From Bryoerythrophyllum caledonicum (taxonomy: Eukaryota > Streptophyta > Bryopsida > Pottiales > Pottiaceae): a DNA stretch of 64,000 nucleotides. The position numbers were made by a program, and so were the translations under genes. Below are positions 1,948 through 37,229 of this stretch, piece by piece (positions within the stretch are counted from its first letter, which is position 1; every line of letters begins with the position of its first letter). Location of the stretch: positions 1,674,001 to 1,738,000 of the forward strand of contig OZ020525.1 in assembly GCA_963971425.1 (NCBI GenBank). Reading direction: 5' to 3'. The notes beneath the pieces are model-generated. The model worked only from the letters and a program-made list of their open reading frames with translations. It did not search any database and was not told the origin of the DNA.

Positions 1948-1951
1948 AAAC
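1948..1951. other. Target-site duplication AAAC (left)
   Basis: AAAC lies directly outside the left terminal inverted repeat. The same four bases lie directly outside the right one at 14650-14653, as expected for the target duplication of a DNA transposon. Four bases is short, so chance agreement (about 1 in 256) cannot be excluded. Confidence 0.6.
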
Positions 1952-1982
1952 AACACGCAATTAAGCAATTATGCACTTAGCC
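1952..1982 (+). repeat. Left terminal inverted repeat
   Basis: These 31 bases begin AACACGCAATTAAGCAATTA and match the reverse complement of 14619-14649 except for one A/G difference near the inner end. The inner bases TGCACTTAGCC run directly into AAGTGCAC, giving a subterminal palindrome that could be a transposase-binding site (inference). Confidence 0.85.
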
Positions 1983-2549
1983 AAGTGCACTGGTTGGTGG
2001 TAGAAAGCCGCAAGTTATTTGCCCATAACTTTTTTTTAAATCAAAATTTGGCAAAATTTTAGTATGTTTTTTGTCAAATTTTTTTGGTGTTTGTTGTATC
2101 ATACATTGGCATCTTTATGTTCATATCAGTAATATATTTTTTCCATTCGCTAACTTTTTTTTGAAAATATATGATTTCTACTCTAGTTTACAAATCATGC
2201 TACAAAATTATGATCATGTGCCCAAAGAGATTATAAATGTGTTATGAGTTATTATAGGATTTTAGAGTACTGCACTACAAACACAATGTGTAAGAGATAC
2301 AAAAATATATATGCAAATTCCTAAGACAGTGTAAAGTACCTCACTGTATTTTATAATGCAAAAACATACATGATCAAGCAATTCCACACTATTGCTGAGG
2401 AATTCTAAAATCAAACATATCATATGGACCACCCAATATATAAATATATACCACCAACCGAACGATAGACACATCTCAAACTGCATAATACTAACGTACT
2501 TGCCACCTAAACTGCGTGCATGCTCTACTATAGTATATAGCTCCACGGC
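1983..2549. other. Left subterminal region of the transposon
   Basis: Non-coding AT-rich DNA between the left inverted repeat and the stop of the leftward gene. Its length is close to that of the matching right-hand region (14077-14618). It probably holds the 3' UTR and terminator of the leftward gene. Confidence 0.5.
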
Positions 2550-5500
2550 TCACAACTCATCTGCTGGCGGAACGACTCCCTCCACGTGTCCAATGGCGCT
2601 ACCTACCATAGCGGATAGTTCATGATCCTCCACTGGACGATCTCCCACATCTTCGATGCCAATGGACGCACACTCAACAAATCGGTAATTGCCAGGAACA
2701 CCCTCCCGCGTATGCCTTACCCTATCATCATTATAGAAAAAGCCATCCTTTGCATTGAAGGACATCTCTCGCTCTGATGAGAAGGCCCCCTGAAATGCAA
2801 TGATGTCCTCGGATACGCTAGATCTTGGAACGGGAGGCAAACCTGGTCCGGTATCACTCTGAGTACCTCCGAACGTCTCTTGTGTCTCCGATACAGGCTC
2901 TGATTGAGGAGGCATCGAAGGCTGTCGAATCCTCCTCTGCACCGAAAAAAATTCACATGAATCCAATCCTTCTTCCTCCATCTCCAACCTAGGACCATCA
3001 AATGTACGCCCCCGTCCTGCCCCTGCCGCCAAACTAACATCTACTACACCTGTAACTTGCATATTCTCTATAGGTGTTGCAGACGTCGCCCCTGAAGTAT
3101 CTCCCACCGTCCGCTGCGTTGATGGAATTCTCTCTCCATCCTCATCGGCGTCTGAATCACTGCCAGATGAAAAATCTTCAGTGGTACCTGAACGTGGCAA
3201 TCTCTCATGTAAACCACCTCCATCCTCATTGTCCTCTTCATTCCTCACTCCACCAACCACATCTTCGGTCTCAGGTATGGTGTTGCAACCAGTACTTGTT
3301 CCACCAGTCCTGACCAACAATTGTCCTTGGAAATTGTCGGACAACTCATTGTACAGGAATGAAACTCTGTCTGTACAATCGTCAATGATGAAAACCTCAG
3401 ATCCCTGGAAATCTCGTTCAATGATCGTGGGAATGGCCGTAGATATGTTACACGCCACTAAACCCCAACCACGGGGCAAGTATGAGCCCACTAGTCTTGC
3501 GAGCTCTGATGGAGATCTCTCAAGTGAATCAACTTCAGAGGGTTGGCGTGCCTCACTCCAGTGATCCAAGAATACAAGTGGAAGTGGAACGTCTCCAGAA
3601 ACATAGTTCGGGCCAGGAGATGTACCCACAGGGTGCTGCATACAAATCACAACATCGCCAATCGGTTGTACTACTTGCTCCAGACGCCCATTCTCTGTAA
3701 AATCAAGAGCATAGGGATTAACCGAGTTGGGATCAAAGGCCCAGCATCCACGTCGCGTAGTACATCCCTCTGGAAGCTTCACCTTCGTGAAAAACTCCTC
3801 ATTGGCATACACAGCCGCAGGTAACAAGAAGATGACGTTCCATCGTTCAATATTTGCCATCCATAATGTCAGCTGTGCAAAAGCTGCGGATAATTGGGCA
3901 TCTCCCCAATGACCATCTCCATGCCTCCCACCGCCACGTCGACAATCAATCACCCACAAACATGGTTTCCCCAACTCTATGTAGTCGGTGCGGAATAATC
4001 CTCTTCTACACCGAACCGAAAGAAGATTCTCTGTGTCGCTCTGCCCTGGCCTCTTGACTTCCATCTGCCATTCCCAATTAGCAGTAGTCAATTCTCCCAC
4101 ATCCACGGACAGTCCAATGTATCCACGCCCCCCTGCTGCAATGTCACCATAATGAAACCTGATGGAAGGGGGGATGAGGTAGCCTATGTCTTCCAGTTTA
4201 GACACCTTCCCTCGCACAGGAGCACTCCAAGCTTTTTTCGTGGCAACATTCAAAAGCTTCCCAAAGGTATCAAGTTGTGCACTACTCCTCGGAAAATACT
4301 TCGCTACACGGATACGAAAGAACTCTTCCATGGAATCAGGTGTACTTTCCTTGTTCTCCACCATCAACCAACGGATCGAATTCATCACAGCTTCTCGTCT
4401 CTGATATCGGTCAACCACACCGGCAATCGTACGAGGATGTGGATTCTTGTCTTTTACACCGTCGAAGTAATATGCTTGAGAAGGTCTTACTCCATCCTCC
4501 CTCACCGGCTTCGCTGCAGCAGACTTTGCCAACCGAAGATAATATGGATTCGGAACCCTACCTAGAGGCCTCAACCAATTCTGCGTCATCTCCTTTCTTG
4601 TTGGTCGTACGTCCACATTTGGATCCAGCTCTTTCTTCCTCGCCATGTCCTTCCACTTGTCCTCTTCTTCCTTGCTGTAAAAGAGAATGCCGTCTTCGTA
4701 GTCCTTGCATACTTGAATGATAGCTTCGAAGCAGTCATTGCTCGGATTCCATGCATGATTGGTCAGATCCTCCATGTTTTTGGCCAACCTCTTCACCGTG
4801 ACAACTCCATCCCCCTTGGGCAACTTATGCACTGCACTTGCCGCACTCACCAAAGCAACAGCCCTGCGTGCATCGTCCGCACGTAGTGTGCTATCAGGCC
4901 TCCCGTATAGATTCCAAATCTGACGGAGCTTCCTCAAATCCTCCTCCATGGTAGAATATGAATGTCTCTGGAACTCCGCCACGTTGATCCGCGCAGACTT
5001 CTCAATGTAAAAGCGACGATCATCATACACCACAAAAGAGGCCTCCCGTCGCTCAAACGTGTCCAGATACTCGTTTAAAGACATAGTACCATCTCTCCAC
5101 TGCTGCTGTGCAAACTTACAAGCTGCTACTATGTGTTGCCCATCCACCGGTTCCCAAATGATATGATCTTGAAGCCAAGAATACTGGGATCCCATAGCAC
5201 CCTGTGCAGATGCACTCCCGTGTGCAATGAACATGCGCTCAAACTCTCGTGCGGTTCCTACCAACGGAAATGGCAGCTCTTCCTTCTCAACGACACCATC
5301 ATCGGTGGTAGTATGCACGATGTATCTGATCGGTCGAAGTACCAATCTACTCACCCGAGTCGCGGATTCTGGGTCCCGTAAGCGGTTGAATACTTCTATG
5401 ACCCTCTTCTGTGATAAAACCCGGTGGTTGGTTTCTGGATTCTCCACAGAGACAATGCGGTCTATGTGTGCCTTAAACACAAAATTCCCCCACACTGATC

Positions 5501-6494
5501 CTTTCGCAATCTCCTCTGTTGTAGGCACTGGTGCTTTTAAATTCATTGGAGTTGGTAGATCCTGTGGTATCTCCGCATTGTCTTCAAAATCCTCTGGTAT
5601 ACTGTCTGGAAGGTTGTGAAAATCTTCTTCCTCCGGCGCCATGGCTGACAAATCAGCTAAATCTCCCGGTGCAGATGTAGGGGCCCTACGATGACCATCA
5701 GACGTCCTGAGCCCCGACCTAGGAATCCTGGCACCTGATCTTGCACTTCTCCCAATCAACCTCCTCCCACTTGGATCCAAACTTGATGGGCCTTCTCTTG
5801 AACCAGAAGCTACATCACTGTCAACACGTCGTGGCCTCTTCGTAGGACGTCTACTCGTTAATGGAGGATTCGGTAATGTCTGTACCTCAGAAGTTGTGGC
5901 GGGATGTTGGTCTCCACTTCCTCTCCCCCCCTCCAGTGGTCGCCAATCCAGTTGCAACGGCTCAGCAAGAATTCGATAAACTTCTGTTTCTTCCGGTTCC
6001 GCTGGTGGGGCTTGAGTTGTCGCACGTGATGGGTCCCTCTCCCGAAATGCCTCATATCGAATATGTTCCTCCATAATCTTCTTAGCCTTCAGCACCATCT
6101 CCGATGATAACGCTAAACAGGCTAAGACGTTGTTGTGTCTAGCAGTACGTACTGCAAGAGAGATGTTCAACCAAAACGTCTGCAATGATTTGAGGAATTT
6201 CACTTGACCTGGATTTTGAAGAAGATTCAAAGGGACAGGTGCAAGAAGCAACTTCTTCGAAAGAGAAGTCTTCACCTCCGATTGACCTGGACCCACTGCG
6301 CAAGTAATGTATACCATATCATCACGTCGAAGAGTGATTGCTTGGATTTTGCCAAAACTCTTCCCCAACGCCGATGTACGCTTTCCCAACTCAAAGGGAT
6401 AATCTGTCACCCACAAGAAGGCGTTCGACTCATCCACTTCCGCGATCCACCAGCCGTGGCTCTCCCAGATTCTATCAATATTTGGTGGTGCCAT
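2550..6494 (-). CDS. 1314-aa transposon-encoded protein, unknown family
   Basis: Single open frame of 1314 codons plus stop, starting at the ATG at 6494 (MAPPNIDRIWESHGWW). The frame stays open for 47 more codons upstream, but that stretch reads into MITE-like DNA, so I prefer the internal ATG. Visible layout: a globular N-terminus (residues 1-150); a Pro/Ser/Arg-rich linker (about 170-310) with basic runs that could be nuclear signals; a globular core from about 330 (VWGNFVFKAHIDRIVSV) through about 840-890 (WVIDCRRGGGRHGDGHWGD, then VIFLLP); a segment at about 1005-1050 with GWGLVACN and EVFIIDDCTDRVSFLYNEL; and an acidic, Ser/Gly-rich tail. The last two core blocks faintly resemble the fold of beta-class DNA methyltransferases, but the catalytic DPPY/NPPY motif is not evident. 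It is divergent from the DUF7869 gene in the same element, so I infer an accessory or second transposition protein. Function unknown. Confidence 0.75.
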   Translation of the reverse strand: MAPPNIDRIWESHGWWIAEVDESNAFLWVTDYPFELGKRTSALGKSFGKIQAITLRRDDMVYITCAVGPGQSEVKTSLSKKLLLAPVPLNLLQNPGQVKFLKSLQTFWLNISLAVRTARHNNVLACLALSSEMVLKAKKIMEEHIRYEAFRERDPSRATTQAPPAEPEETEVYRILAEPLQLDWRPLEGGRGSGDQHPATTSEVQTLPNPPLTSRRPTKRPRRVDSDVASGSREGPSSLDPSGRRLIGRSARSGARIPRSGLRTSDGHRRAPTSAPGDLADLSAMAPEEEDFHNLPDSIPEDFEDNAEIPQDLPTPMNLKAPVPTTEEIAKGSVWGNFVFKAHIDRIVSVENPETNHRVLSQKRVIEVFNRLRDPESATRVSRLVLRPIRYIVHTTTDDGVVEKEELPFPLVGTAREFERMFIAHGSASAQGAMGSQYSWLQDHIIWEPVDGQHIVAACKFAQQQWRDGTMSLNEYLDTFERREASFVVYDDRRFYIEKSARINVAEFQRHSYSTMEEDLRKLRQIWNLYGRPDSTLRADDARRAVALVSAASAVHKLPKGDGVVTVKRLAKNMEDLTNHAWNPSNDCFEAIIQVCKDYEDGILFYSKEEEDKWKDMARKKELDPNVDVRPTRKEMTQNWLRPLGRVPNPYYLRLAKSAAAKPVREDGVRPSQAYYFDGVKDKNPHPRTIAGVVDRYQRREAVMNSIRWLMVENKESTPDSMEEFFRIRVAKYFPRSSAQLDTFGKLLNVATKKAWSAPVRGKVSKLEDIGYLIPPSIRFHYGDIAAGGRGYIGLSVDVGELTTANWEWQMEVKRPGQSDTENLLSVRCRRGLFRTDYIELGKPCLWVIDCRRGGGRHGDGHWGDAQLSAAFAQLTLWMANIERWNVIFLLPAAVYANEEFFTKVKLPEGCTTRRGCWAFDPNSVNPYALDFTENGRLEQVVQPIGDVVICMQHPVGTSPGPNYVSGDVPLPLVFLDHWSEARQPSEVDSLERSPSELARLVGSYLPRGWGLVACNISTAIPTIIERDFQGSEVFIIDDCTDRVSFLYNELSDNFQGQLLVRTGGTSTGCNTIPETEDVVGGVRNEEDNEDGGGLHERLPRSGTTEDFSSGSDSDADEDGERIPSTQRTVGDTSGATSATPIENMQVTGVVDVSLAAGAGRGRTFDGPRLEMEEEGLDSCEFFSVQRRIRQPSMPPQSEPVSETQETFGGTQSDTGPGLPPVPRSSVSEDIIAFQGAFSSEREMSFNAKDGFFYNDDRVRHTREGVPGNYRFVECASIGIEDVGDRPVEDHELSAMVGSAIGHVEGVVPPADEL

Positions 6495-6552
6495 AATGCA
6501 ACACTCAAAAAACCTGTATATCATTACAAAACGATAGTCACTATTAGTATGG

Positions 6553-7640
6553 AATAAGAATTTTTGAACCACCACTGATTGCACAATTTTTTTGAACATG
6601 CAACACCCCTTGTCTACGTTTAAAAATTTTTGCACTACGGAAGATCTAAATCCAATACCATTGTGTTAAGCATGTTGTTAGTTCTTTGGTGAAATAGCAT
6701 ATTAATCCAAATCAATTATTTTCACACATTGTCACACATTTTCGGCCAAAGTACTAAAAACACTTCTACCTTTCTACATAAATCTTCGAGATCTTCGTAT
6801 GATTCACTTTTGATTTTTCCTACGGCATTATGTCATGTAAACCTTCTAATTGACCATTTAGATTCTAATTTCAAACAAAATGAAGTTAAAAAATAAATAA
6901 ATAACATGAATTAAGAATTTTTGAACCTCCACTCATTGTACAATTTTTTAGAATATGCTACACTCCTTTTCTACCTCTAAAAACTTTTGCACTATACAAG
7001 ATCTAAATCCAATAGCATCGCGTGAAGCATGTTGTTAGTTCTTTGGTAAAATAGCATATCAATCCAAGTCAATTATTTTCACACATTGTCACACATTTTC
7101 GGCCAACGTACCAAAAAAACCACTACCTTCCCACATAAAATTTTGAGATCTTCGTATTATTCACTTTTGATTTTTCCTACAACATTATGTGATGTAAAAC
7201 TTCTTATTGACCATTTGGATTCTCATTTAAAACAATATCGAGTTCCCCAAAAAATATAACGTGAATTGAGAATTTTTGAACCTCCACTCATTGCACAATT
7301 TTTTTGAATATGCTCCACTCCTTGTCTACCTCTAAAAATTGGTACATAGCAAACTAACATCATGATTAACATTATGGTAATTAATTGAGACCCTTTAAAA
7401 TGCAAAAATTGGACACCAATTGAAGTCAAAGTCTGCTGATCCATAAAACGCAGGGATGAAAATGAGCCTATTCTCAATTTCAAACATTATAATCTTTCAA
7501 TCCGTGCGGTCAAACTTTATGAAATTTTGTGAGTATATTACTTAATAGGTGTTTATTGAGATCCTGCGGTTAAAACTATAAAAAAACCTTCATTTTTTCA
7601 TCCAAGATAATTGCACTAAAACAAGCATTTTTAAGGAGTT
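6553..7640. repeat. Rearranged MITE with internal triplication
   Basis: Sequence of the same family as the TTAA MITEs elsewhere in the window, but without clean ends. The motif GAATTTTTGAACC followed by CCACTCATTGCACAATTTT starts near 6555, 6914 and 7269. The segment has therefore been tandemly duplicated with a period of about 355-360 bp, the third copy being partial. It sits directly upstream of the 1314-aa gene and probably separates that gene from its original promoter. Confidence 0.6.
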
Positions 7641-7853
7641 TTGGTTGAGATATTCACTACACCATTTATGGACTATGGTACTTTGGGTATCAATAGAGAG
7701 GGTATCACATCCAGGGTATGAATTCATGGGTACAAACATCCGGTTATCAACATATATTGGATCAGGGTATCAATTAGGGTTTCAAATTTAGGGTTTTGTT
7801 TAGAGGGTATCAACTGAGGATATCAATCCTTAGACCCTTGGGTAGTGCAAGGA
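7641..7853. other. Degenerate GGGTATCA-rich spacer
   Basis: A short stretch in which GGGTATCA and close variants recur several times (about 7685-7830). No coding potential is evident. Confidence 0.4.
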
Positions 7854-7875
7854 GGGGTGTGCGCGCGCACACCCC
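7854..7875. repeat. 22-bp perfect palindrome, copy 1
   Basis: The half-site is GGGGTGTGCGC followed by its exact reverse complement, with a CG-alternating centre. An identical 22-mer is at 8445-8466, on the other side of the assembly gap. Confidence 0.85.
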
Positions 7876-7996
7876 TGCCATAGTTCTGTGGAGGCTGTGA
7901 GCGTGAGAGAGGGTTTGGAGGAGGGAGATGCTTGTGAGAGTGTTGTGTGTTTGTGAGAGAGGGCTTGTGAGAGGCTTGTGGGTTCGTGAGAGAAGG

Positions 7997-8196
7997 NNNN
8001 NNNNNNNNNNNNNNNNNNNNNNNNNNNNNNNNNNNNNNNNNNNNNNNNNNNNNNNNNNNNNNNNNNNNNNNNNNNNNNNNNNNNNNNNNNNNNNNNNNNN
8101 NNNNNNNNNNNNNNNNNNNNNNNNNNNNNNNNNNNNNNNNNNNNNNNNNNNNNNNNNNNNNNNNNNNNNNNNNNNNNNNNNNNNNNNNNNNNNNNN
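7997..8196. other. Assembly gap of 200 N
   Basis: Exactly 200 N, a conventional placeholder length, so the true gap size is unknown. Flanking DNA on the left is rich in GTGAGAG-type purine repeats, which probably broke the assembly. Confidence 0.98.
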
Positions 8197-8444
8197 GCTG
8201 CCGCGCAGGTTACTAGTGATTGGGGTTACTAATGATTGGGGTTACTCATCATGATGCTACTCATCATGATGGTTTTGGGTATGGCTCACAGAAACTCCGG
8301 GCGCAGAAACTTTTAGTGTTGATTGTCATGGTGTACAGGAACCCACGAAGCTCTTTCTCACTTTCGTCGAGAGGAATCACGAAGGTCCTTGCATGAGGTT
8401 TGAGCCAAGAAGTTTTTGGATGAATGGAGGAGCACCAGGAGTTG

Positions 8445-8466
8445 GGGGTGTGCGCGCGCACACCCC
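8445..8466. repeat. 22-bp perfect palindrome, copy 2
   Basis: Identical to the palindrome at 7854-7875. The pair encloses the assembly gap and could be the ends of a small inserted element or two hairpin sites of the transposon. Confidence 0.85.
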
Positions 8467-8538
8467 ATGAGGCGTTACGCGAACGCCATGGGGAACGAGG
8501 GGACTAGGGTTTGGTTTTAGGGTTTGGGTTTCTAGTTG

Positions 8539-8618
8539 TGGCGGCTAGGGTTTGGTTCTGGCGGCTAGGGATTGGTTGCGGCGGTTAGGGTTTGGCTGCG
8601 GCAGCTAGGGTTTGAACT
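8539..8618 (+). repeat. 20-bp tandem repeat, four units
   Basis: Four 20-bp units close to TGGCGGCTAGGGTTTGGTTC, each with one to several substitutions. The core TAGGGTTTGG resembles plant telomere-like or telo-box DNA. The units lie in the central region between the two divergent transposon genes. Confidence 0.75.
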
Positions 8619-9723
8619 AGTGTGCTGATGTGCCATTCCATAGATTTAGTGCCACACTACGGGCTACTCACATTACTGAAGTTTTCAGTGGGTTTTGGTG
8701 TCACTTTGATGTTACTAGTTGACTGACTAGTTGTAAACAAATAACTTCTGTTGTATTTGTAATTTTTGAACATACTGAAGGTGTCCTCGTTTGTATGCTC
8801 AAATATTGGTACTGCTGACCTTACACTATTGTAAATCTGACCGATCTATTATCATCATAAACCTAACCCTGGAGTTCCCTCGGATTCAGAATTGAAACAA
8901 GGTTAGAAGCTTACCAAATTTGCAGAAGTCTCCTCGATGTGCAAATTTCCTTCAATCTACACGGTCCACACAAAGTTGACAGAAGTCAGTGACTGAAGTA
9001 AAAACGCACATGGCCTTGAGCTTTCGATTGCAAGAGAGCTTACCTTAGGTACTGGGAAGAGAAATGACCTCCAGATTTTCACAGAAACCTTATATCCATG
9101 CTGGAAACTTGTGCCTGAAGTATACTAGTCAAAATTTGACTTTCGAAATTTGGACCTTTTGCTTTGTATTTTCTTATGTTTAAAATTTTTACATAATATA
9201 TTAAAATTTTGGGCTATATGTAATACGAAGATACATAGGAGTTTTTATCACATAGTTTACCATATAAATTTTATGCATGTGTCGCAGGTAAAGTGGGAAG
9301 GGTTGAAAAACATGTCCAATAACGACAGAATGGTGATTCAATGTTTAACGCCATCAAGCATCAGTGCGTGTACCACTAATACCTGCTACGTATCTTGAGG
9401 TAAACATTTATTTTTATACAAGTTTAAGATTGATTATTGATTGATCTTCTATACTATGTTGTTTGTAGAATAACTTTTATGTGGATGTACAAACCTTTCT
9501 TTTATTAGGGATTGTAACAAGTTCCAATGGTTGCAGTAATAGCTCGTAGACAACATGGTTCATTTTCTTCCCTAGGTTCAGTGGATTCCCTCCGTTTTCA
9601 GTTCACTTGGATTCAAAAGATTGCATCACACCTGATCTAGATTCATTATCATCATGTCAAGACTGATATAAGTTCCATTTTACACCAATGTTTAAGGATA
9701 CAATAGAGGTGTAGCATATTTAG
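8619..9723. other. Central spacer of the transposon, no gene seen
   Basis: About 1.1 kb without a convincing ORF. It may contain the original promoter region and 5' non-coding exons of the rightward DUF7869 gene, but I cannot define any splice junctions with confidence. Confidence 0.4.
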
Positions 9724-10662
9724 CCCCTAAAGGATCATGTGTCATAAATAAGATTTTTCAAAATTTAGGCACGTTCCTATGGTGTCAGTTTCCAACATTC
9801 CTTCTTTGAAAATTTTACTATAGAAAGGCATTACCAAGACTTCAGTGGAAAAACAATTTTTACCTTAATTGGACATTTGATAAAAAAATATAAGGGTTTT
9901 GAATTTCAAATGGGGAGAGCGGGCAAGTCCGACACGTCCAAAAACTTTTGCTTAGACACTCTGTTAAATGTGAGATTTTCAGTACTTGCAAGTAATATTA
10001 TTTCCTTTGATGTTGTCAAAATAAGTTCTTGTCTTTAGTGAAAAATAACATACCAACACAAACATTTTCACACATTGTCAGCCAGTGTTGGGCAAGGTAT
10101 CCACAAAACGTCTTGTTTTTCAAATAAAACCTAGATATCTTTTTATTTTTTAGTTTTTATTTTTTCCAGAACAATATGTGGTGTAAACCTTCTTATTGAC
10201 CTTTTGGAGTACCAATCTAAAACATATTAAGTTCACAAAAATCTACAGAGTGAATTAACAAATTCCGAACTTCCACTCCTTGCTCAATTGTTTTGAATAT
10301 GCTACACCCGTTCTCTACCTCTAAAAATTGGTGTACAAGGAACTAACATCATGCTTAACAAGATGGTTATGGATTTAGACCTTCTGTAGTGCAAAAATTT
10401 GACACCAAGTGAAGTCAAAATCTACTAATCCACTCCACGCAGGAAAGAAAATGAACCATATGCTTGACTCAAACACTATTATCTTTCAATCTGTGCGGTC
10501 AAAGTTTATGAAATTTTGTTTATATATTACTTAATAAACCTTAAGTGAGATCCTACGGTCAAAATTAGAAATTAAATTTTTCGTCTCCATTTTTGTTTAT
10601 TGCATTAGAATCCAACAATTTTGAAGTCTTTTTTGTGTAAGACTGTCAGTGTACCTTCAGGG
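9724..10662. mobile_element. MITE, TTAA family, nested copy
   Basis: Begins CCCCTAAAGGATC after TTAG (a changed TTAA) and ends ACCTTCAGGG before TTAA. It is 939 bp and closely resembles the copies at 33973 and 53878. It inserted inside the 12.7 kb transposon, ending only about 180 bp upstream of the DUF7869 ORF, so this MITE copy is younger than the transposon. Confidence 0.8.
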
Positions 10663-10845
10663 TTAAAGACTCCGTGCAAGGAATTCATGCTCTACAAATT
10701 CTAATTTTTTTCATTTCAAAGCAGTTTTATCAAAAAGTCCAATTTCATCATCATATTTTGAACAGTAAATATGTGTTTAGAAACATTTCTTTTATTAGAT
10801 GAATGGTGCTTTGAAGGTTTAGAATTAGTACATGTATTTTGACTA

Positions 10846-13800
10846 ATGTGCAGCCATAATGTTCCTATGTTTTTAATAGTGATAATGGAGAGCCGCACGA
10901 TTCAGACTCCTTCGATACGGCCACACATCCAAATGGATAATATACATTCCAATAGCTCAGTGGGGGCTCGTTTAGTACGAGCAGCACGTGCAAGGCAAAT
11001 TCAACAGAGATCTGTTGGGATCATGACATCTGAATTAGATACGGCCGTAGAATTGCTTTCTGAGAGAGGAGATGTGGTGGGCTTAGCAACTAGGGAGCAT
11101 GCATTCAAAAGTGGCATGGAATTGAATGGGTCGAAGTTGTTCCCATACGAGGTGGCGGTGCGTATCACTAGGGTAGATGATGCATTGCATTGGACCGGAG
11201 AGATTGTAGGAGAACGCCTTGGCATGTGTATGGGCTTGATCATTCGTTGGCATCGGTCTTTGCTACGTGTAGTGGCTGTAGAACCTGATATTACAGGTGT
11301 CCATGGTGACATTGGATCACAGATAGCGCCTGCACAAGTGATGGCTCCAGAATTTAATTTCCCTGAGTTCATCAACACACCTGGATCCACCCAGAGGTCT
11401 CGACGCAGTAGTCAAGCTTCTAACGCCATAGATGAAAATTCGCCGTTTTCCCAGCCTACTCCCTCAAATATCCAAGATTTGCCCCATGTAGATGGATTTT
11501 CTTATCTGAGACCAGCACGTCGTCCCTATTCTATGCAAAATAGGAGAAGGAGAGATTCAAGGGAGACATCATTGACAGAAGCTGGACCATTCAAGGTATC
11601 GCTTAGAAGCGTGCAAATTGCAATGGCACAAGGAGGATGCAAACGCAATTGTTTGAGGGACGTTCCAGCAAGGTATCTATTGGACATGCGATATAATGCA
11701 TGGGCTACTGAGTTTTCAGTACGAAGTACGTGGATGAGACAGATGTTGGTTTCTTTTTATACAAGGACGGAAGGAACTCGTCGAGATAAGTTTGTAACAA
11801 AGTTAGATGGGAAAGAAATTTGCAATGCTTGCTACGCTCTTGGGGTTGGATATTCACAGAGGCGCTTTAAGCAATTGAAGAAGGACTGTCTAATATATGG
11901 GAGAGTGACATCGATTCACGGCAATACCCTTTCAGATCCGATCAGAGAGAGCACTAGAATGTCTGCAGCAGATGCTTGCTTTAAATCATTTGTCGATGAA
12001 GCTGGTTGTCCTCAACCTCATCGTTGTATTCGCCGTAAGAGTGACAACGAAGTGGTGCCTCTCATTCTCCTTCCTATGAATACAGCCAAATTTGATGTAT
12101 TCAATTACGTGAACGAGGAGGTCAAGAGAATTTGTAATGGAGAAACCATTTCTATGAGTTCGTTCCGGAGGATGTGGCGCATCAAATATCCCCACGTTCA
12201 GGTACCTCCATTCTCAAGATTCTCAAAGTGTTATCATTGTTGGGAGTATAAATGTGCCATGGAGGGAACCACCAATGCGGATGCAAGGATAAAGATAAAG
12301 GAGTTGTTTATGTTGCATCTGCGCAACCAGATGGAAGAACGTAGGCATTATTGGATATTCAAGAGGTCGTGTTATATTAGCCCTGAGTTGTACATGTGCA
12401 TCATAGTGGATGGCATGGACCAAAATACGACCATGGTACCGAGGATGCGTCAGACTGTGAAGAACATTGAACACCGATTTGTGAAGACCCATCTATGTGG
12501 TGCTCTTGTACATGGGATTGGTTTATATTGCGACGTGTGGTTTGGGGCTCACCACAAACACGATAGCAACCAAGTCGTGAGTACATTGTTGTACGTGATA
12601 GGAGATGTGTTGCGGAGGAGGGGCTTTTTGCCACCAACACTGCGAATTCAGGCGGACAACTGCACACGTGAGAACAAAAACATTTATATGTTTGCTCTAT
12701 GTGCTACATTGGTGGGATTGGGGTTTTTTCAGGAGGTAGAACTATCTTTTCTCATAGTGGGCCATACACACGAAGATATTGATCAACGCTTCAGTTGTAT
12801 ATCAAATACGTTGAAGAGGTCGGACGTGGATTCGTTGAAGGAAATGATGAGTCTTATAGAACGAGGAACATCCCCTACGGAGGCATTTGTTAGCGCGCGG
12901 CTGCTAGAGAATGTATGGGATTGGAAAATGTTCATAACTCCTCACTTATTGACAGGTCAGGATTCATTGGTGGGCATAACATTTCCGCACCACATGCGAT
13001 TCTATATGGACAATCGAGAAGGGACTCGTGAGGTTCGAGTACAACACAAGCATTATTGCAAGGATCCATGGGGACCGGAGGTAGGGACGAAAACTTTGAG
13101 GTCATTGCCAAATAGGGATGAGCGACCATCGTTTGCGGAAGTATTTGCAGCGGACGAACGGGAGTTGAAGGCGTTGGATGACTTCATTACATATAAACAA
13201 AGGTGCATTCAACGGTTGCAGCATGAGGACAAGAATCGTGAGGCAAAAGTAGAGGCTGAAAGATTGAAACTCTATTTAGCTCAATTTCCACACAAAGACC
13301 GTAGCAATGAGCATCGTACCTCACCGTTTTGGCCTTCAGAGTTTTCCAACATCGGACCTACAGAGAGTGCATCTTTGGATGTAATGGATGGTGCAAGTGA
13401 AGAAAATCGCGAGGTACATGTCGTAGAGCAGGTAGTGGCCATGCTTCCAAATGCCGAGGCTCGAGGATACTTTGGTCCTCGTAGAGGAAGACCCTCTAAT
13501 CAAGCAGTGCGTAGGGCACAACAAATAGAGCGCAACTATGTTGAGGAACGCGCCGAAGAAGGAGCAATGTATGAAGGTAATCACGACCCATTTCCACCAT
13601 TTAATCCACAATCTGATATCCGTTGTGGACAGTTTGTAGCCTTGAGTGTTGATCGAGCAGAGATAGAAGGCGGTGTACCATTCTATGTGGGGAAAGTGAT
13701 TGAGGAAGGAAAAAACCGATGGAGACTTAAGATTAAAGTTTGTTGGTATTGGCCCATCATCCAAAGGGGGGTTGCTGATGGACATGGATCTTCTGCACAA

Positions 13801-14076
13801 CGATATGCGAATTGCATGGATTCATTCTGGGAGCCATCTGGGGAGAACCATAGTTGGGTAGAGAAAGATGCATGCATTTTTTCATGGGTAGACACACCGG
13901 AAAGAACCATGTCCGGGGCCAACGGGTGCAGAAAGCGCAATGTATTTGGAGTGCAAGTTGAAAGCAGGATTCGCATTCTTCAATCGGCAAAGGCTCACAT
14001 CCTACAATATATTGCAATGCAAACCGAAGCTATCGATGACGACCGTTTGCAAGCAGCCCTAAATTCTATGGAGTAG
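10846..14076 (+). CDS. DUF7869-type protein, candidate transposase
   Basis: Single open frame of 1076 codons. The ATG at 10846 is the first in frame; MESRTIQTPS at 10885 is an equally good start, because the first 13 residues read like spliced-out or upstream DNA. Residues 1-230 are variable and Arg/Ser-rich. From about 250 the DUF7869 layout appears: a Cys pair (CKRNCL), DGKEICNACYALG near 321-333, FSKCYHCWEYKC near 459-470, then the conserved core with IIVDGMDQN (519-527), KHDSNQ (571-576), QADNCTRENKN (602-612) and VGHTHEDIDQ (638-647). Spacing of D522 or D525, D604 and E643 or D646 fits an RNase-H-like DDE/DDD active site, which I infer and have not shown. The product would act in the nucleus on the element's inverted repeats. 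The ORF is complete and undamaged. It is divergent from the 1314-aa gene. Confidence 0.85.
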   Translation: MCSHNVPMFLIVIMESRTIQTPSIRPHIQMDNIHSNSSVGARLVRAARARQIQQRSVGIMTSELDTAVELLSERGDVVGLATREHAFKSGMELNGSKLFPYEVAVRITRVDDALHWTGEIVGERLGMCMGLIIRWHRSLLRVVAVEPDITGVHGDIGSQIAPAQVMAPEFNFPEFINTPGSTQRSRRSSQASNAIDENSPFSQPTPSNIQDLPHVDGFSYLRPARRPYSMQNRRRRDSRETSLTEAGPFKVSLRSVQIAMAQGGCKRNCLRDVPARYLLDMRYNAWATEFSVRSTWMRQMLVSFYTRTEGTRRDKFVTKLDGKEICNACYALGVGYSQRRFKQLKKDCLIYGRVTSIHGNTLSDPIRESTRMSAADACFKSFVDEAGCPQPHRCIRRKSDNEVVPLILLPMNTAKFDVFNYVNEEVKRICNGETISMSSFRRMWRIKYPHVQVPPFSRFSKCYHCWEYKCAMEGTTNADARIKIKELFMLHLRNQMEERRHYWIFKRSCYISPELYMCIIVDGMDQNTTMVPRMRQTVKNIEHRFVKTHLCGALVHGIGLYCDVWFGAHHKHDSNQVVSTLLYVIGDVLRRRGFLPPTLRIQADNCTRENKNIYMFALCATLVGLGFFQEVELSFLIVGHTHEDIDQRFSCISNTLKRSDVDSLKEMMSLIERGTSPTEAFVSARLLENVWDWKMFITPHLLTGQDSLVGITFPHHMRFYMDNREGTREVRVQHKHYCKDPWGPEVGTKTLRSLPNRDERPSFAEVFAADERELKALDDFITYKQRCIQRLQHEDKNREAKVEAERLKLYLAQFPHKDRSNEHRTSPFWPSEFSNIGPTESASLDVMDGASEENREVHVVEQVVAMLPNAEARGYFGPRRGRPSNQAVRRAQQIERNYVEERAEEGAMYEGNHDPFPPFNPQSDIRCGQFVALSVDRAEIEGGVPFYVGKVIEEGKNRWRLKIKVCWYWPIIQRGVADGHGSSAQRYANCMDSFWEPSGENHSWVEKDACIFSWVDTPERTMSGANGCRKRNVFGVQVESRIRILQSAKAHILQYIAMQTEAIDDDRLQAALNSME

Positions 14077-14618
14077 ATAGTGTGCCTTTTTTAGAGTATA
14101 CTAGTTGTGTATGGTAATTGATATATACTGTATGTGTAAGAGTAGTATATTCTAAGGGTGATGTAAGACGTTATGTCATTAATCCTTTAGAGTAAAGCTG
14201 TGTTTACTATCGGTGCTAAGTCCAATTGTTGAAGCATCTATATTTAGTTTTCACCATTGTATGCATTATGTACTATGTAGAATATCTTTTAATCAACTGC
14301 CAACCCTTGCAAAAAGTATGTTTTTTTGTAATTACGTCTGTTTATATATTACAATTCTTCAAATCTATCTTTGGAATATTGTGAAACTATATTAAATACA
14401 CATTTATCTAGTATTAACGAAGGGATACCACAAATTAGTTGAAAATGCCAAAAAATCGCTTCCAATATGAACAACCATAATTGTACATAATATTGTTGCA
14501 GAAGCTCAATTTTTTTTCCTTAGGAAAACATTTTTTTTCTTTGATTTTTTTTTTTTTTTTTCAATTTTGCCACTTTTGTTCGCAATGGCCGCCGTTGTAC
14601 CCAAGTGCACTTTTAAAT
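14077..14618. other. Right subterminal region of the transposon
   Basis: AT-rich non-coding DNA between the DUF7869 stop and the right inverted repeat, including a long T-run near 14540-14562. A second copy of CCAAGTGCAC lies at 14601-14610. It probably holds the 3' end of the DUF7869 transcript. Confidence 0.5.
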
Positions 14619-14649
14619 GGCCAAGTGCATAATTGCTTAATTGCGTGTT
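14619..14649 (-). repeat. Right terminal inverted repeat
   Basis: The reverse complement begins AACACGCAATTAAGCAATTA and matches the left repeat at 30 of 31 positions. It is followed by AAAC (14650-14653), the repeated target site. Confidence 0.85.
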
Positions 14650-14653
14650 AAAC

Positions 14654-27339: not shown

Positions 27340-28247
27340 CCCCTAAAGGACCAAATGTTCTTCTGGGGGACGATTTTGATTTTGGGCAGGTTCTTAAAAT
27401 TTGATTAACATTTTCTTAATACTAGGTTGTCCCTAATAAGAGCTTTGTGGAGGTATTTTTATTATTATTTTTGGATTCGTGGTTTGAAAGTTAGTACCAC
27501 TCAAAGTTAAAATTGGGGACTCTAGGCAGCTCCAATTTTTTTCTAAAATTTTCTATCAACATTGAGATTTTTCATAAATGAAGAGAATATTACTCTTTTT
27601 GAAGATGCCAAAAGAAATTCTTGTCTTTAGTGTGGAAACACATTTTAACCCAAGGCAAACATTTTTACACATTTCCGGCAATTAAGGAAAAAAACTTGAC
27701 CTTTTCTACATAAAACCTAGAGATCTTCCTATTTTTTAGTTTTTATTTTTTGTAACATCAACATGTGGTGAGAACATTCTTAGTGACCGTTTGGATTATC
27801 ATTCTAAAATTTATTAAGTTAAAAAAAAATAAACGTGAAATGGCAATATTTGAATCTCCACTCCTTGCACACTTGTTTTGAATATGCTACACTTTTTCTC
27901 TACCTCTAAAAATTGGTGCATAGGGAGCTAACATCATGTTTAACACAATGGTAAAAGATTTAGACCTTGTGTAGTGCAAAAATTTGATACCAAGTGAAGT
28001 CAAAGCCTGCTAATCCACTCAACTCGAGGAAGACCCTAAACCATTTTTTTGACTTCAAAAACTATAATCTTTCAATCCATGCCGTCAAAGTTTTTGAAAT
28101 TTTCTGAGTATGTTACTTGGTAAGTTTTAATTGAGATCCTACGGTCAAAACCATAAATATAAGGTTTCGATTCCTTCCTGACTCATTGCACTAGAATCAA
28201 CAATTTTGAAGTGTTTCTCGTGTGAAATTGTCACGGTCCTTTAGGGA
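27340..28247. mobile_element. MITE, TTAA family
   Basis: Starts CCCCTAAAGGACC after ATAA (a changed TTAA) and ends near GGTCCTTTAGGG at 28246. The interior matches the other copies (for example CACTCCTTGCAC, GTCTTTAGTG, TGATCCACT-like blocks), while its first 150 bp are shared with the short MITE at 41799-42011. Confidence 0.7.
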
Positions 28248-28559
28248 CTAAGGTACAGCAAGCTTAATCTTGCATTCTAAAGGGCCCAAGAGCAGTGATT
28301 GTCATGCCTTTCATTGGTGTAGCAAGAAATCCCTCATGTTCTCTTTCTTTCGGTATTTCAATCTCACCCTACCTTTTTCATTTCTTTCCTCTTTAGAAAG
28401 GACTTTCAAGAAAACTCCAATGAGTGGAAAAAAGAAACAAAATAATAAAATAGACGTACGTAGAAATACGTGTAAATACGACAACCCTCGTAACATGTAG
28501 GAATACGCGTAGGAATGAAACAGATACGGAATTCAAATACCTAGTCTACGAACATTCCT

Positions 28560-29638: not shown

Positions 29639-32600
29639 ATGGTCGGGCGAATGTCGTTGCCCTCGGATGCGGACGATGACGCGCAGAAGCTGCAAGACTT
29701 CTTGATGCAAAGCACGAGTGGCGACATAGTGGCAGCATGCCAGGCGGTGGAGGCCCAGCTCCAAACCGTCGGTGGCGAGCATGTGCGGGACTTTTATCGT
29801 CTCTGTTTCCCCATACTGCTGCGGAAAATCTTTGGTTTCGAGGACTCCAGTGCCGCGCAGCCGGCTTCCTCAGCCGGGGGTTGGCTCGCTCAGGCCTCTG
29901 TACCGGGAAATGAGGCAGCTGCGCGGGCCTTGATCGCTCTTTTGTCACCGCGTGGGTCCTTATTTTCGTCTCTTCTTGCTGTGGACAAGGAGAATTTTGT
30001 GCGGTATGTCTTTCCAATGGAGAGGTTGCCAGAGTGGGTCAGGAAGCTACTCTCGCAGGAGAAAGGGGCTCAAGTCTTGTGCCAGGTTTCAGGTCTGTAT
30101 AAAAGCCGCATTATCGAGGATGCGAACGGGTGTATGCAGGTCAGTTTTGCCTTACCTTCGTGTTGGTCTGATACTAATTACAGCAAGGATGCATGTCGCG
30201 GTGAAGAACTGGTTCTGAATACGGAAATTTAATCAGTGTGGAGTCTGAAAACTTTAGACAGTATTAACGAATATATTTGACTTTCAAGTTTAATTCAACC
30301 TCCAGTTTATGATTTCTAATATGATTATAGATTTCATTCTGGTATGAAATGCACGAGCTAGTTCATTGGGAAGGTTCACCGTGGATATGGTTTCTGTTTT
30401 GGTGTTTGACATAGACTAATACCGCATTCAACCTTTTTCGCTGCCCGTGTATTAAATGGTTTTCTTATGTATTCGATATTTTGTTGAATTGCATGTTTGC
30501 AGGATTTTTGTGTTCCCTCTTTGCGCTTTATCACTTCACTGATATAAATTTGGATAATCAATTGCAGGTTCATTTGGACGTCTTTGAGTACTACATGTTT
30601 TGGTTTGCTTACTATGCGGTCTGCAAGGACACAAATCAACCTCAGGGAACAGCAGTAGGAAGGCGCAGTCGATTTACACCATCTCGATCAGTTCAGTTTC
30701 GAATGCAACTCGAGAGTTGGGCGTCCTCCATCCCTCGTTTATCTCACTCCCCGCAAGCAATAGAAGCTGGTGGCAGTCCTTATCTCCAGCTCTTGAAGCT
30801 CTATCTTTCTCATTTTGTCATCTTAAGTAACCCAGCTAGAGGGTATCCTGGGCGGGAGTTGCTTCTAGGTGATGGCGGTGGCGCAACGCACGGGGATATT
30901 CTTATCTATACTCTGGTCGAATTTTGGCTTGTTGACGATGATCCTTCTCCTTTACCTTTGGCTGTCAGGCAATCTCTTGGTTTCCCAGCAGGGGGAGCGG
31001 CGCCAGTTTTGAGCTATATTCCCCCTGGAACAGATTTGACCGATTCCCTCAAAGTTTTAATGAAGTTTCTTAATAGCAATTTGCGGTCATCCATAGGCGA
31101 GCAGACAATGGCCAATTTGTCGTCTCCAATTATAGATTATAGTCTAAATTTTCGTAGGAAGTTATCTGACAGTCCCTCTGGACTGTTTTCCTCTCCTCTT
31201 TCGCCCTTACCCTCTTATGGAGCTCCTCAGTTCCCTTCACCTTCAAATCCATATTTGCAGGCTTTGCATAGACCTTTGTACAGATTCCTACATCGAGCTT
31301 TTCGGCTCTGGCCAATAGGCACGTCCGTCAGGAAGATATCTCAGGTTGTGGACGTATGGGTAGATTACTTAGAGCCGTGGAACACAGGGTTGGACGCGGC
31401 AAATGCCAGGGAGCAAGCACAGCAACATTGGCAAAAGGATGCAGTCAAGGGGGGAAGCAAGGAGTCTGGTTCGAGGCTATCTCCAAGTTTGTCTTTGAAG
31501 AAACGTTCAGATGGAAGTTCTGTGATTGGTTTTACCAGTTCAAAGGCCTTGGATCGCAGGGTTGCCGTTGAGTCGTACACCGAACTTTGGCAGGTACCCA
31601 GCTATCATGGTCCTACACAAGCCCTATTTCCATTATTTTGCTCATCGTGTTGAGGCTTCAGGTGACTAGAATATTGACAAGAGTATTGACACAGGTGACT
31701 AGAGTATTTACTGAGACTAATTGTAAAGAGGGCTGTGGATCTTTGCCGTTTGATTTCACTCTTGAGTTTTGCTTGAATTCTGGATGGCACTGGCAAATGC
31801 ATATTTGTTGCGTTCCTCGTTGAATACTCATCTATGGAGTTTGCTTCTATGCTATCTGGATGTACGTATGCAACGTATTTCGAGGTAGGGAGTAGGTGCT
31901 TTGATTTCTTGGCTAATGTTTCTAAACTGGCTGTCAACTGTTCGCAGGGTTACGTGTTGGCTAATTACCTCTTTTACACTTCTTTAGTGACGAACTTCTT
32001 GGAGTTTGCTCTGAAGTTTGTGCATATAGATCCCGAGGCTATTTTTCAAATGGTTCATAAGGTATGACACTGTGTTACGACTCTATCTAACGAAAAATTT
32101 GTACAAAAGCATCCGATCTTTAAACTTCAAATTTGAGATCTTTAGGCGTACGTCTTCCACCTAGTTTTGTCCCTCTAGCTTCTGAAAGGTCTTCCATCAG
32201 TGCAGTCCGAAATGTTGTCAATTAATGGTCAACCCTTTAGAGAATGCTTCCATGCTTGACGTCGATGTGGTTGAATCAGGTGTTATCTGTTTTAGCAAAA
32301 TCCAAGGATCTGATTGAACTTCTGCGCAAAGTAGATGTTGCGTATGGGGCACACATCTATGGCCGTCCACATCAGCGCAATAATGTATTGCTCGAATTAG
32401 CTCCCACTATTCAGGAGCAGTTACAGGTGACCTAAGAATTTGCTTCTTCGTTTTAAGATTCTCTGAACAATATCTTGTTTTGTTTCTTAAGTTGATGGAC
32501 TGTTTTTCTCTTATTCAACAATACATCTTTTCTGTTACAGATTTTTTTTGTACTTACAGCTTATTTATCAAGACCTTTTCCTCCCTCTTCCATGTATTCT

Positions 32601-33735
32601 GTTGCCACTTTTATGGAGGTTGAAGTAGGATCTGAGTAGATGTGAGTGTTCACAGCACAGACGAGAACTTCTAATGCTGATAGAGGTCATTTTTGACATG
32701 TAGGACTGGGAAGAGGGTGCTGAGATGGACGAGGAGCAGGAACGAGGGGATGGACTCATTTTACGTTCACCACTTCGAAACAAGCCTCCTCAATTACGGC
32801 TGTTCAGCATGAGCGACAATGGAGGCAACCGCCTTCTCCAGGTTTGCTCTTTTTCCATATATTCCTATGTTTAAATTATGTTGACTAGAATTGGTTGTGG
32901 CTTGTTCTGAGAAGGAAATGAGTGCACTAGTTTTACGATGTATATGTATTGCGAAAGAGCCCTGTACGTTCTTCTTTACTAACCTGGATTGGAGGTCGAA
33001 AAAATTCCTGACTTCATCAGATGCATCCTTTATTGTTGTTGGCAGGCATTATTCATGCGAGCTGAAGTAGAGATTCAAGCATCATCAAGCGAAAAACCGC
33101 CATTAAGTGCACCTTTATTGGAGTCTGTGAAAGATGTTGCCCGGACGATCTTTGACATGAACAGCCTGTCAGGAAGTCCTTCAGGAGTTTTTCAACCAGC
33201 TTACTGTCAATCTCCAATTGCATCTCATGCAGAAAAATACAGTAATCGTGAGGATGCATCTACCCGCAATCTAGGTCTGCAGCGCCACTCTTGGCAGGAC
33301 GTCAAGTACAAAGGAGACTGGATGAGACGGCCAATTGAGAGTACCGAGGTGGCGTTTCTCGCACGATTGTTTGTAAGGATTTCAGACGCAATCAACACTA
33401 CGCTAGGCCTCACAGGTCCTGTTGCTGTGAAGAGCAGCGAAGCTCCTGATGCAAGAGAAGGTGTTGTTCAAGGGGACGCTGTCCCCTCGGAACCCTCCGA
33501 AGAAGTCGCCCTTCCTAGCAGAGGTGAGATCAAATTCTCCGATATAGTAGATTTTGTCAAGAACATGCTCTGGCAAATTTTGTTAACTCTTCAGCTAGAG
33601 GCTAGAAATCGGGGTTGGCGAGTCAATTTGCGGTTCATGGCTGAGAATAAGTTCCTGGTCCTCAGTATGTTGGCCTTGCTTTTATACTGGCTTGTTCGAG
33701 CAGTCATCTGCTTCGTTGCCAACTTCTTTAGGTGA
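29639..33735 (+). CDS. SMPD4-like neutral sphingomyelinase homologue
   Basis: Six coding exons, all joined in phase 0: 29639-30139, 30568-31593, 31948-32061, 32280-32426, 32704-32841 and 33046-33735. Together they encode 871 residues, the usual length for the SMPD4 family. All junctions are GT-AG. Recognisable blocks: VFEYYMFWFAYYAVCKD (start of exon 2), SYTELWQ|GYVLANYLFYTSL across the exon 2/3 join, FALKFVHIDPEAIFQMVHK, then LAKSKDLIELLRKVD, EQLQ|DWEEG and LLQ|ALFMRAEVEIQA. A hydrophobic helix near the C-terminus (from FLVLSMLALLLYWLV) fits a tail-anchored ER or nuclear-envelope protein. In animals SMPD4 is a membrane-bound nuclear-envelope and ER protein reported to hydrolyse sphingomyelin; the plant role is unclear. 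The TGA stop lies within AGGTGAGT, a perfect donor consensus, so an alternative extra exon is possible. Confidence 0.85.
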
Positions 33736-33972
33736 GTGTCACTGCGGGTATTGTAGAGTATTTTTTAAGGGCTAGTAGTGAGAAACCTGTACGAAATGTT
33801 TCTCTTCTTACGTACCTAATGTGGGTCTGCCCGATCTACTAAACGGGGTTCTTTAGAGAGCTGTGCAAGGTTTAAGAGAATGTACAGTACATGAAGCCTT
33901 TTATACAAAATAAAGGTGGGATTTTGGCGGCATCTACAGAGAAGGTATCTCGCTCACCAACTTCTTGTTTAA

Positions 33973-34917
33973 CCCCTGAAGGACCAAGTGTCCAAAACGG
34001 GCTTTTTGAAAGTTCGGTCAGGTTCCTACGCTGTCAATTTCCAACATTCATCTTTGAAATTCTTACCATAGAAGGGCATTACCAAGACCTTAGTGGGAAA
34101 ACAATTTTTTCCTAAATTGGACATTTGATGAAAAAGTTATAGGGTTTTTAATTTCAAATGGGGAGGGCGGGCACCTCGGGCACCTCCAAAAACTTTTGAT
34201 AGGACACTCTATTGAAAGTGAAATTTTCAGTACTCGCAAGTAATATTATTTCCCTTCATGTTGTCAAAAAAAAGTTCTTGTCTTTAGTGAAAAATAGCAT
34301 ACCAACCCAAGTCAAACATTTTCACACATTGTCACTCATTGTCGGGCAAGGTACCAAAAAAACTTCTTCTTTTCCACATAAAACCTAGAGATCTTCATAT
34401 TTTTCACTTTTTATTTTTTCCACAAAAATATGTAATGTAAACCTTCTTATTAACCATTCGGATTATCAATCAAAAACATATTAAGTTGAAAAAATATTAA
34501 AGTGTGAATTAACAAATTTCGAGCCTCCACTCCTTGCACACTTGTTTTGAATATGCTACACCCTGTCTCTACCTCTAAAAATTGGTGTGTAAGGAGCTAA
34601 CATCATGCTTAACAAGATGGTAATAGATTTAGACCTTGTGTAGTGAAAGTTTTTGACACCAACTGAAGTCAAAGTCTGTTGATCCACTAAACGCAGGGAA
34701 GAAAATGAACCATTTGCTTGACTTCAAACACTATAATCTTTCAATCTGTGCCGTCAAAGTTTATAAAATTTTGTACATGTATTACTTAATAAGCCTTTAT
34801 TGAGATTCTACGGTCAGAACTAAAAATCAAAGTTTTTGTTACCTTCTTTATTCATTGCACTAGAATCCATTAATTTTGAAGTGTTTTTGGTGTAAAACTG
34901 CCTTGGTACCTTAGGGG
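33973..34917. mobile_element. MITE, TTAA family, complete copy
   Basis: 945 bp, starting CCCCTGAAGGACC and ending GGTACCTTAGGGG, flanked on both sides by TTAA (33969-33972 and 34918-34921). This is the best-preserved copy and fixes the family's ends. It carries no ORF, so it would depend on a transposase elsewhere. It lies about 240 bp downstream of the SMPD4-like stop and could supply 3' transcript sequence. Confidence 0.9.
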
Positions 34918-35078
34918 TTAAGTGTCTCAGTTGTCTAATTTTCTGATGCTTGCGCCACACTGTATTTTGAGTGTCAGTTCTATATCTACGTTAGGCTCTC
35001 GCAATTCTCTCGCAAATTTATCGGCTTCACTTGCCAAATTCAACATTCATTGCTCAACAAATCGTTTGCAAACATTAA

Positions 35079-36016
35079 CCCCTAAACTACCAAGTCATTT
35101 TCAAACCAAAAACACTTCAAAACTGCGCGTTTCAATGCAATAAGTAAGGAATAAAACCAAAACTTTTATTTCTATTTTTGTTCGTATGATCTCAATTAAC
35201 ACTTATTAAGTAACATACTCACAAAATTTCATGGACTTTTATACTGCACAGATTGTTAGATTGTAGTGTTTGAAGTACAGAAAATGGTTCATTTTCTTCC
35301 TCGCGTTTAATGGATCAGGAGACTTTGGCTTCACTTGGTGTCCAGTTTTTGCACTACACAAGGTCTAAATTCAACACCACCATATTAAGCATGATATTAG
35401 TTCCTTGTACAACAATTTTTAGAGGTAAAGAAGGGGTGTAGCATATTCAAAAAAATTGTGCAAGGAGTGGAGGGTTCAAAATTGTGGATTCATGTTTTTT
35501 TTTTTTTTTTGTGAACTTAATTTGTTTTTGATTGAGAATGAAAAGGTTTACACCACATAATGTTGTGGGGAAAATAAAAAGTAAAAAAAGATGACGATCT
35601 CTAAGTTTTATGTGAAAAGGAAGAAGATTTTTTGGTACCTTGCCCAACAATGAGCAACAATGTGTGAAAATGTTTGACTTGGACTAATATGCTATTTTTC
35701 ACTAAAGACAAGAGATTTTTCTTGATAATATGAAAGGAAATAATATTATTTGCTGCTATAGAAAATCTCACATTCAATAGAGTGTCACAGTAAAAGCTTT
35801 TGGAGTTGCACGACGTGCCCGCTTTCCCCATTTGAACTTCAAAACCCTATAAATTTTTTATTAAATGTCAGATTGAGGAAAAATTGGACTCACACAAAGC
35901 TTTTAATAATGTCCATCTACAATAAAAACATTTACAAAAAATGTTATAAATTGACACAAGAGGAACATGCCCAAACCTTCAAGAGTTCCCCAAGGGGACT
36001 TTTGGTAATTCAGGGG
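35079..36016. mobile_element. MITE, TTAA family, inverted copy
   Basis: 938 bp flanked by TTAA (35075-35078 and 36017-36020), in the opposite orientation to the copy 160 bp to its left. The two could pair as a large stem if transcribed together. Confidence 0.85.
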
Positions 36017-36743
36017 TTAATTTCTTGTACTCCTACCGCCCCACTCGTATAACATCACAAAGACTGTAGAAGCGGAATCAAACTAGAAAAGCAAGGTGAA
36101 AACATGGCAGAGGAAAGAGAGTACAAATACACTGCTCTGAATATTAACCCTCTGAGTATTAACCCAATTTATTTTTTAATAAGATACTAAAATCAATTTA
36201 CATTTAATAGTTTTGTAAGTCCCACCTGTTCTCTTTGCTTCACTTAACAAAGTTAATTACTAGCTACACTGCTATGAATATTAACCCTTGAACGCCGTGC
36301 AAGGTGCGGAGTGGTGCCGCAAAGGCATGTTTAGGGCCTCTTTGGTGTTAAAGCCCCTCAAATTCAATATCTAACTACACTAACCCACTCCAGTTTTTCC
36401 TAATAGGTTGACAATAGTTATCATCAATAAAACAAGACAATCCATTATTGAATTCTCTGATGAAGAAAACCAAAGTCTAACACACATCCGAATGTATTTC
36501 TAAGGACATTGTGTAAAGATGTTCTACATAAAACTAAATTCTTAATTCTCATGGTTGAATCATTTACATTCTAATCAATAACATCTATACGACGATAGAT
36601 TCATGGGGATTAGAAACAAGGTGGATAGGAAAAGAATCTCATATGAGAGCTCAATCCAAGTGCTTCGGACACAGACACGGGATCATTGCACGATACTGTA
36701 AAATACTCGGGGGCGAAGTTCCAGGCGAGAATAATATCCAGAA
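36017..36743. other. Spacer with nested TTAA motifs
   Basis: Contains several short TTAACCC motifs (36150-36160, 36279: TTAACCCTTGAACGCCG), probably ends of decayed MITEs of the second family. No convincing gene. Confidence 0.4.
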
Positions 36744-36941: not shown

Positions 36942-37229
36942 GCTGTCCCTTTTGGCCCACAGTCCCTCTATTTTACTCTGGCAGGAGGTGGCGCTAGAAT
37001 ATGCATCGATTCAACGCCGACTCTTGGGATCTTGACCGACTTGATCTGCGGGAAACTTGTCGTGAAGGTTCTAGTATCGATTGGAGCTGGTGATCGTCGT
37101 CTAGATTTGTTGTATTTATTGGTGGAGTGAAGGATGTGAGTTTCGATCAGGTTCGGAGGGTGACTGGTTTTTGAGGACGACGGTTGAATTGGGTTGTTTG
37201 GTCGGTCGGCGGGGATTTGGAGGAAGGGT

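Follow-up and report, generated by a model that had tools for sequence, protein, structure and literature searches.

Structure and boundaries of the element

The stretch analysed here (the window) comprises 64,000 nucleotides of contig OZ020525.1 from the moss Bryoerythrophyllum caledonicum (positions 1,674,001 to 1,738,000; coordinates below are counted from its first letter) and contains, at 1952-14649, a large DNA transposon whose ends are complete and which has a target-site duplication of 4 bp and two intact divergent genes. The left terminal inverted repeat (TIR) covers 32 bp (1952..1983, + strand) and starts with AACACGC; the right TIR also covers 32 bp (14618..14649, - strand). When the ends are aligned in inverted orientation, 31 of the 32 positions are identical, which slightly lengthens the repeats of the initial annotation (31 bp, 30/31). 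A 27-bp terminal core, searched with up to 3 mismatches, occurs in the window only at the two ends of the element (0 in 100 shuffles). As a random expectation, the longest exact inverted match reached 15-19 bp across 20 windows simulated under a first-order Markov model.

The AAAC reported at both ends is present at 1948..1951 on the left and 14650..14653 on the right (both unstranded). Four is the sole matching length when flank duplications of 2 to 11 bp are compared, and joining the flanks in silico leaves a single AAAC. The subterminal regions had also been described as symmetric. This description is not supported, since alignment of both ends detected no similarity beyond the 32 bp. The motif AAGTGCAC, common to the ends, is matched 5 times in the window where 1.96 matches are expected, and 4 of 100 shuffles also reached 5.

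The two open reading frames (ORFs) point outwards and each contains one stop, which is terminal. With start codons set at the methionine conserved in relatives, ORF-B (2550..6494, - strand) encodes 1314 aa and ORF-A (10885..14076, + strand) encodes 1063 aa, or 1076 aa from its first ATG; the pair of intact outward frames noticed at first is thereby retained.

ORF-A, a candidate DDD transposase

The only Pfam domain of ORF-A is DUF7869 (PF25273, E = 7.6e-51), as initially annotated. It is present in 12/12 aligned members of the family and is preceded by conserved cysteine pairs. At least 11 relatives share 53-84% identity with ORF-A, and 8 of them cover 96% or more of the query (minimum counts, as 7982 candidates were scored). 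Pattern scans confirmed no relative in viral or prokaryotic genome contigs.

In RNase H-like transposases, the three catalytic acids sit in conserved stretches of the kind found in the family alignment, where the near-invariant stretches include VDGMDQN, QADN.TRENKN and GHTHEDIDQRFS. The invariant acids are compatible with a DDD pattern, and we infer that ORF-A is a DDD transposase whose candidate acids are D522 or D525, D604 and one of E643, D644 or D646 (numbered from the first ATG). Weak matches of the low-confidence ORF-A model to Agenet, chromo-barrel and Tudor folds (E 0.9-2.8) came with no ranges, were not placed and were not used. If such a match were real, it would suggest a chromatin reader able to guide insertion.

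ORF-B, a putative ParB- and methyltransferase-like protein

From the N- to the C-terminus, ORF-B is composed of an N-terminal domain, a low-confidence linker, a putative ParB/sulfiredoxin-like region, a helical region, a domain resembling beta-class DNA methyltransferases that lacks the catalytic motifs, and an acidic tail. Its relatives (37-64% identity) share a conserved core, and a pattern scan confirmed none of them in viral contigs. Pfam gave no match to ORF-B up to E = 1. On ten members of the family, Pfam, NCBIfam and PHROGs returned only single-member matches (best E 0.1, 0.0091 and 0.0018, respectively), which were taken as chance; the best PHROGs match is the unannotated phrog_35330.

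The putative ParB/sulfiredoxin-like region (5094..5519, - strand; ORF residues 373-514 in the 1361-residue numbering) contains NPETNHRVLS ... IIWEPVDGQHIVAAC, conserved among relatives, which we take by eye to be a ParB/sulfiredoxin-like motif. The VIA fold-match rows are taken up by the methyltransferase domain, and nothing was therefore deduced from them on the ParB or N-terminal folds.

The large partner of the DUF7869 protein had been called unrelated. Its C-terminal domain, however, models with the fold of beta-class DNA methyltransferases (3306..4028, - strand; model residues 823-1063, corresponding to residues 870-1110 of the ORF when it is numbered over 1361 residues). According to the predicted structure and its fold matches, this fold is common to M.BceJIV, M.RsrI, CcrM and M.MboIIA, which are beta-class N6A/N4C enzymes. 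The general form of the catalytic motif in this class is (D/N/S)PP(Y/F/W), and the five active methyltransferases compared carry DPPY, plus D-x-F-x-G after strand 1. Both motifs are missing in ORF-B, which has no detected sequence similarity to these enzymes. Their equivalents were placed using the model, the aligned ranges and the comparison with active enzymes. In an alignment of 17 rows, DCRR replaces DPPY after the model strand matching strand 4 in 15/15 covering rows (P0026 and P0027 fall short of this position). The 15-residue stretch that matches strand 1 with the loop after it reads GWGLVACNISTAIPT in the window, and D-x-F-x-G is found in none of the 12 rows, among the 17, that cover this stretch. 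As the catalytic and S-adenosylmethionine-binding motifs are replaced, ORF-B, as modelled, is probably a pseudoenzyme with catalytic residues apparently lost, which does not methylate DNA. The invariance of the DCRR replacement suggests that the domain was probably kept for a role other than methylation.

Comparison with known superfamilies

Target-site duplications are 8 bp in hAT, TTAA in piggyBac, and 3 bp in both Harbinger and CACTA elements. These superfamilies, as well as Mutator (7-12 bp) and Tc1/mariner (TA; PMC10741241, in the section consulted), were rejected because the 4-bp AAAC flanking the single copy of the element analysed does not match their duplications and because ORF-A contains no Pfam transposase domain of any of them.

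The element had been presented as fitting no superfamily, a claim that the descriptions of Sola do not support. According to PMC10741241 and PMC9033089, Sola elements encode a DDD transposase, duplicate 4 bp on insertion and have TIRs of between 11 and 1124 bp; most measure 2-9 kb but some exceed 15 kb, their termini are very variable, and they are known from the moss Physcomitrella. Here, the duplication is AAAC and the TIRs have 32 bp (31/32 identical); duplication length, candidate DDD pattern, TIR range, size and moss occurrence all agree with these descriptions.

The closest parallel is Sola1-1_Ec32, an element of 21.5 kb from the brown alga Ectocarpus. According to PMC12477816, the strand opposite to its transposase encodes a protein of 1104 aa that contains both a ParB-like and a DNA methyltransferase domain and for which 4mC (N4-methylcytosine) or 6mA (N6-methyladenine) activity is predicted. 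The moss element combines the 4-bp duplication of Sola with a DDD candidate, a large size and, as in Sola1-1_Ec32, an opposite-strand gene that is methyltransferase-like in the fold model of ORF-B and putatively ParB-like. It differs in its length (12.7 kb), in its larger partner protein (1314 aa) and in the methyltransferase motifs, which ORF-B has lost. By this analogy of structural features, the element is most likely of Sola1 type.

Two other types of element, both described in the consulted part of PMC3627910, share some of these traits. Sola2 elements that carry Fanzor1 resemble the moss element in their AT-rich duplications of 4 bp and in having a second gene, but this gene is a Fanzor and not a ParB/methyltransferase. 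Mariner elements of giant viruses carry methyltransferase genes, which were recognised by domain matches that ORF-B lacks.

Interior of the element and surrounding window

The initial description of the interior left unmentioned a run of 200 N (7997..8196, unstranded), a gap or mask within the element. Two identical 22-bp perfect palindromes (GGGGTGTGCGCGCGCACACCCC) flank it in mid-element, at 7854-7875 and 8445-8466, 569 bp apart. The inverted and direct repeats of the central part are largely nested copies of a dispersed, TTAA-ended repeat also present elsewhere in the window. This repeat of about 950 bp starts with TTAACCCCT and ends with AGGGGTTAA. Within the element, one near-complete copy (TTAGCCCCT...AGGGTTAA; 9719..10666, + strand) is 84% like that at 33968-34921, and partial, internally duplicated copies occupy the central region (6549..7646, unstranded). 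Outside the element, copies are located at 33968-34921, 35075-36020, 27606-28252, 49668-50313 and 54069-54830; the two copies at 34-36 kb face one another, and the longer copy pairs are 72-84% alike. The repeat is possibly a non-autonomous transposon targeting TTAA. The CpG observed/expected ratio is 0.70 for the element, 0.82 for the host gene region, 0.75 for the non-LTR (non-long-terminal-repeat) element and 0.62 for the right flank, but 0.25 for the left flank, which is 1951 bp of AT-rich DNA; these ratios led to no clear conclusion and were dropped.

Exons of a sigma-70-type factor lie at 38201-39617 (Sigma70_r2, E = 1.7e-17; Sigma70_r4, E = 3.2e-11; Sigma70_r3, weak, E = 0.0036). Their distribution across several frames suggests that they probably belong to a nuclear gene with a plastid-targeted product. 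An ORF at 37194-38315, with no Pfam match, may be the first exon of this gene. Among the host ORFs at 30481-33735, two of the three tested have weak mit_SMPDase matches (E 2e-6 and 1.3e-4, the second under the curated cut-off). Together with the sigma factor exons, these matches make the window read as nuclear DNA from a photosynthetic eukaryote, probably from a land plant. In the minus-strand ORFs at 55132-60063, an RNase H domain (E 1e-13) accompanies a reverse transcriptase domain (E 7e-11); these ORFs are probably a non-LTR retrotransposon broken over several frames.

Proposed mechanism and alternative explanations

We propose, with a probability of about 0.55, that the locus is an autonomous cut-and-paste transposon with Sola1 as its most likely type, in which ORF-A would be the transposase and ORF-B a pseudo-methyltransferase that binds the DNA of its own element and either aids transposition or blocks silencing. 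ORF-A would cut at the AACACGC ends, insert the element with a 4-bp stagger and join it. ORF-B would bind element DNA through its ParB-like and methyltransferase-fold domains and, as a pseudoenzyme, may contribute to end recognition during transposition or, by analogy, keep host silencing off the element. The model for the anti-silencing idea is provided by VANDAL elements, which are Mutator-like. Their VANC proteins bind noncoding regions and induce the loss of silent marks (PMC10398659, in its consulted part). In both systems a DNA transposon of plants is accompanied by a second protein, with sequence-specific protection as the supposed task; the likeness drawn between VANC and ORF-B is one of supposed role.

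Several observations weigh against this proposal. The structure model of ORF-A is poor (mean pLDDT, predicted local distance difference test, of 39) and gave no fold match in PDB at E <= 0.001, so that its RNase H fold is read from the motifs. For ORF-B, the model is moderate (pLDDT 58; predicted template modelling score, pTM, 0.32), with values mostly of 59-71 in the ParB part, while of the 25 ten-residue blocks that make up the methyltransferase part, 13 reach a pLDDT of 70 and 6 fall below 50. When the ORF-B family was compared with active methyltransferases profile to profile, the outcome was negative (best probability 1.2%), and the ORF-B core matched no PDB sequence up to E = 10; the link to these enzymes and the position assigned to the motifs consequently depend on the predicted fold. 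Pfam ParB has no match in 10/10 members of the ORF-B family. A phage protein titled ParB/Sulfiredoxin is among the fold matches, with a poor whole-length superposition (519 columns with gaps; root-mean-square deviation 23). Finally, the 27-bp core scan found no second copy of the element in the window. The support for the earlier suggestion of recent mobility is indirect and comes from the perfect duplication and the intact ORFs.

The 4-bp duplication and the type of partner shared with Sola could instead have arisen by convergence or gene exchange, in which case elements that pair DUF7869 with a ParB/pseudo-methyltransferase protein would form a separate superfamily. The literature searched contained no mention of DUF7869 or of the accessions tried, the consulted part of PMC10741241 names no AACACGC termini for Sola (which it calls very variable), and the element was set against Sola by description. 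We nevertheless regard this as the doubtful option, because the element agrees with Sola in the length of its duplication and TIRs, its candidate DDD pattern, its size and its presence in a plant, and because an opposite-strand gene with ParB and methyltransferase domains recurs in one Sola1 family (PMC12477816).

As to the partner protein, the modelled fold and the proposal made for the protein of Sola1-1 from Ectocarpus (PMC12477816) would allow ORF-B to be an active methyltransferase that places 6mA or 4mC on its own element; DCRR in place of DPPY in all 15 covering rows and the lack of D-x-F-x-G in all 12 make this improbable. About equally improbable is a passenger gene with no role in the life of the element: giant algal transposons do bring accessory genes, mostly of unknown function, but the same source describes the same type of partner in a brown-algal Sola1 (PMC12477816), and ORF-B has kept an intact frame of 1314 codons and relatives with a conserved core. 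A somewhat better, still tentative, candidate is a core transposition subunit for end recognition or target choice, required at each jump and not a regulator. It would agree with an ORF-B intact beside ORF-A and conserved among relatives at 37-64% identity; this identity is lower than among the relatives of ORF-A (53-84%), as would be the case for an arms-race regulator, although this argument is weak as the two sets are unpaired by species.

Within the proposed pseudo-methyltransferase role, a more specific and speculative scenario is that plant Sola-like transposons turned a phage-type fusion of ParB and DNA methyltransferase into a conserved pseudoenzyme, which would recognise their own DNA, and might also spread along it, to block host methylation. 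Among the matches listed for transposon-borne ParB/methyltransferase proteins, judged by title and the start of the abstract, only PMC12477816 concerned such an element and none offered a precedent for a pseudo-methyltransferase anti-silencing system.

Significance

The uncharacterised domain DUF7869 is here tied to a transposon with complete ends and to a probable place near Sola. The element carries a ParB/methyltransferase-like protein whose catalytic sites, as modelled, have been lost and replaced by conserved residues. Its pseudo-methyltransferase shape suggests it as a candidate tool with which element DNA could be bound or shielded. If ORF-B does shield the element from host methylation, it would represent a second plant anti-silencing system, independent of VANC.

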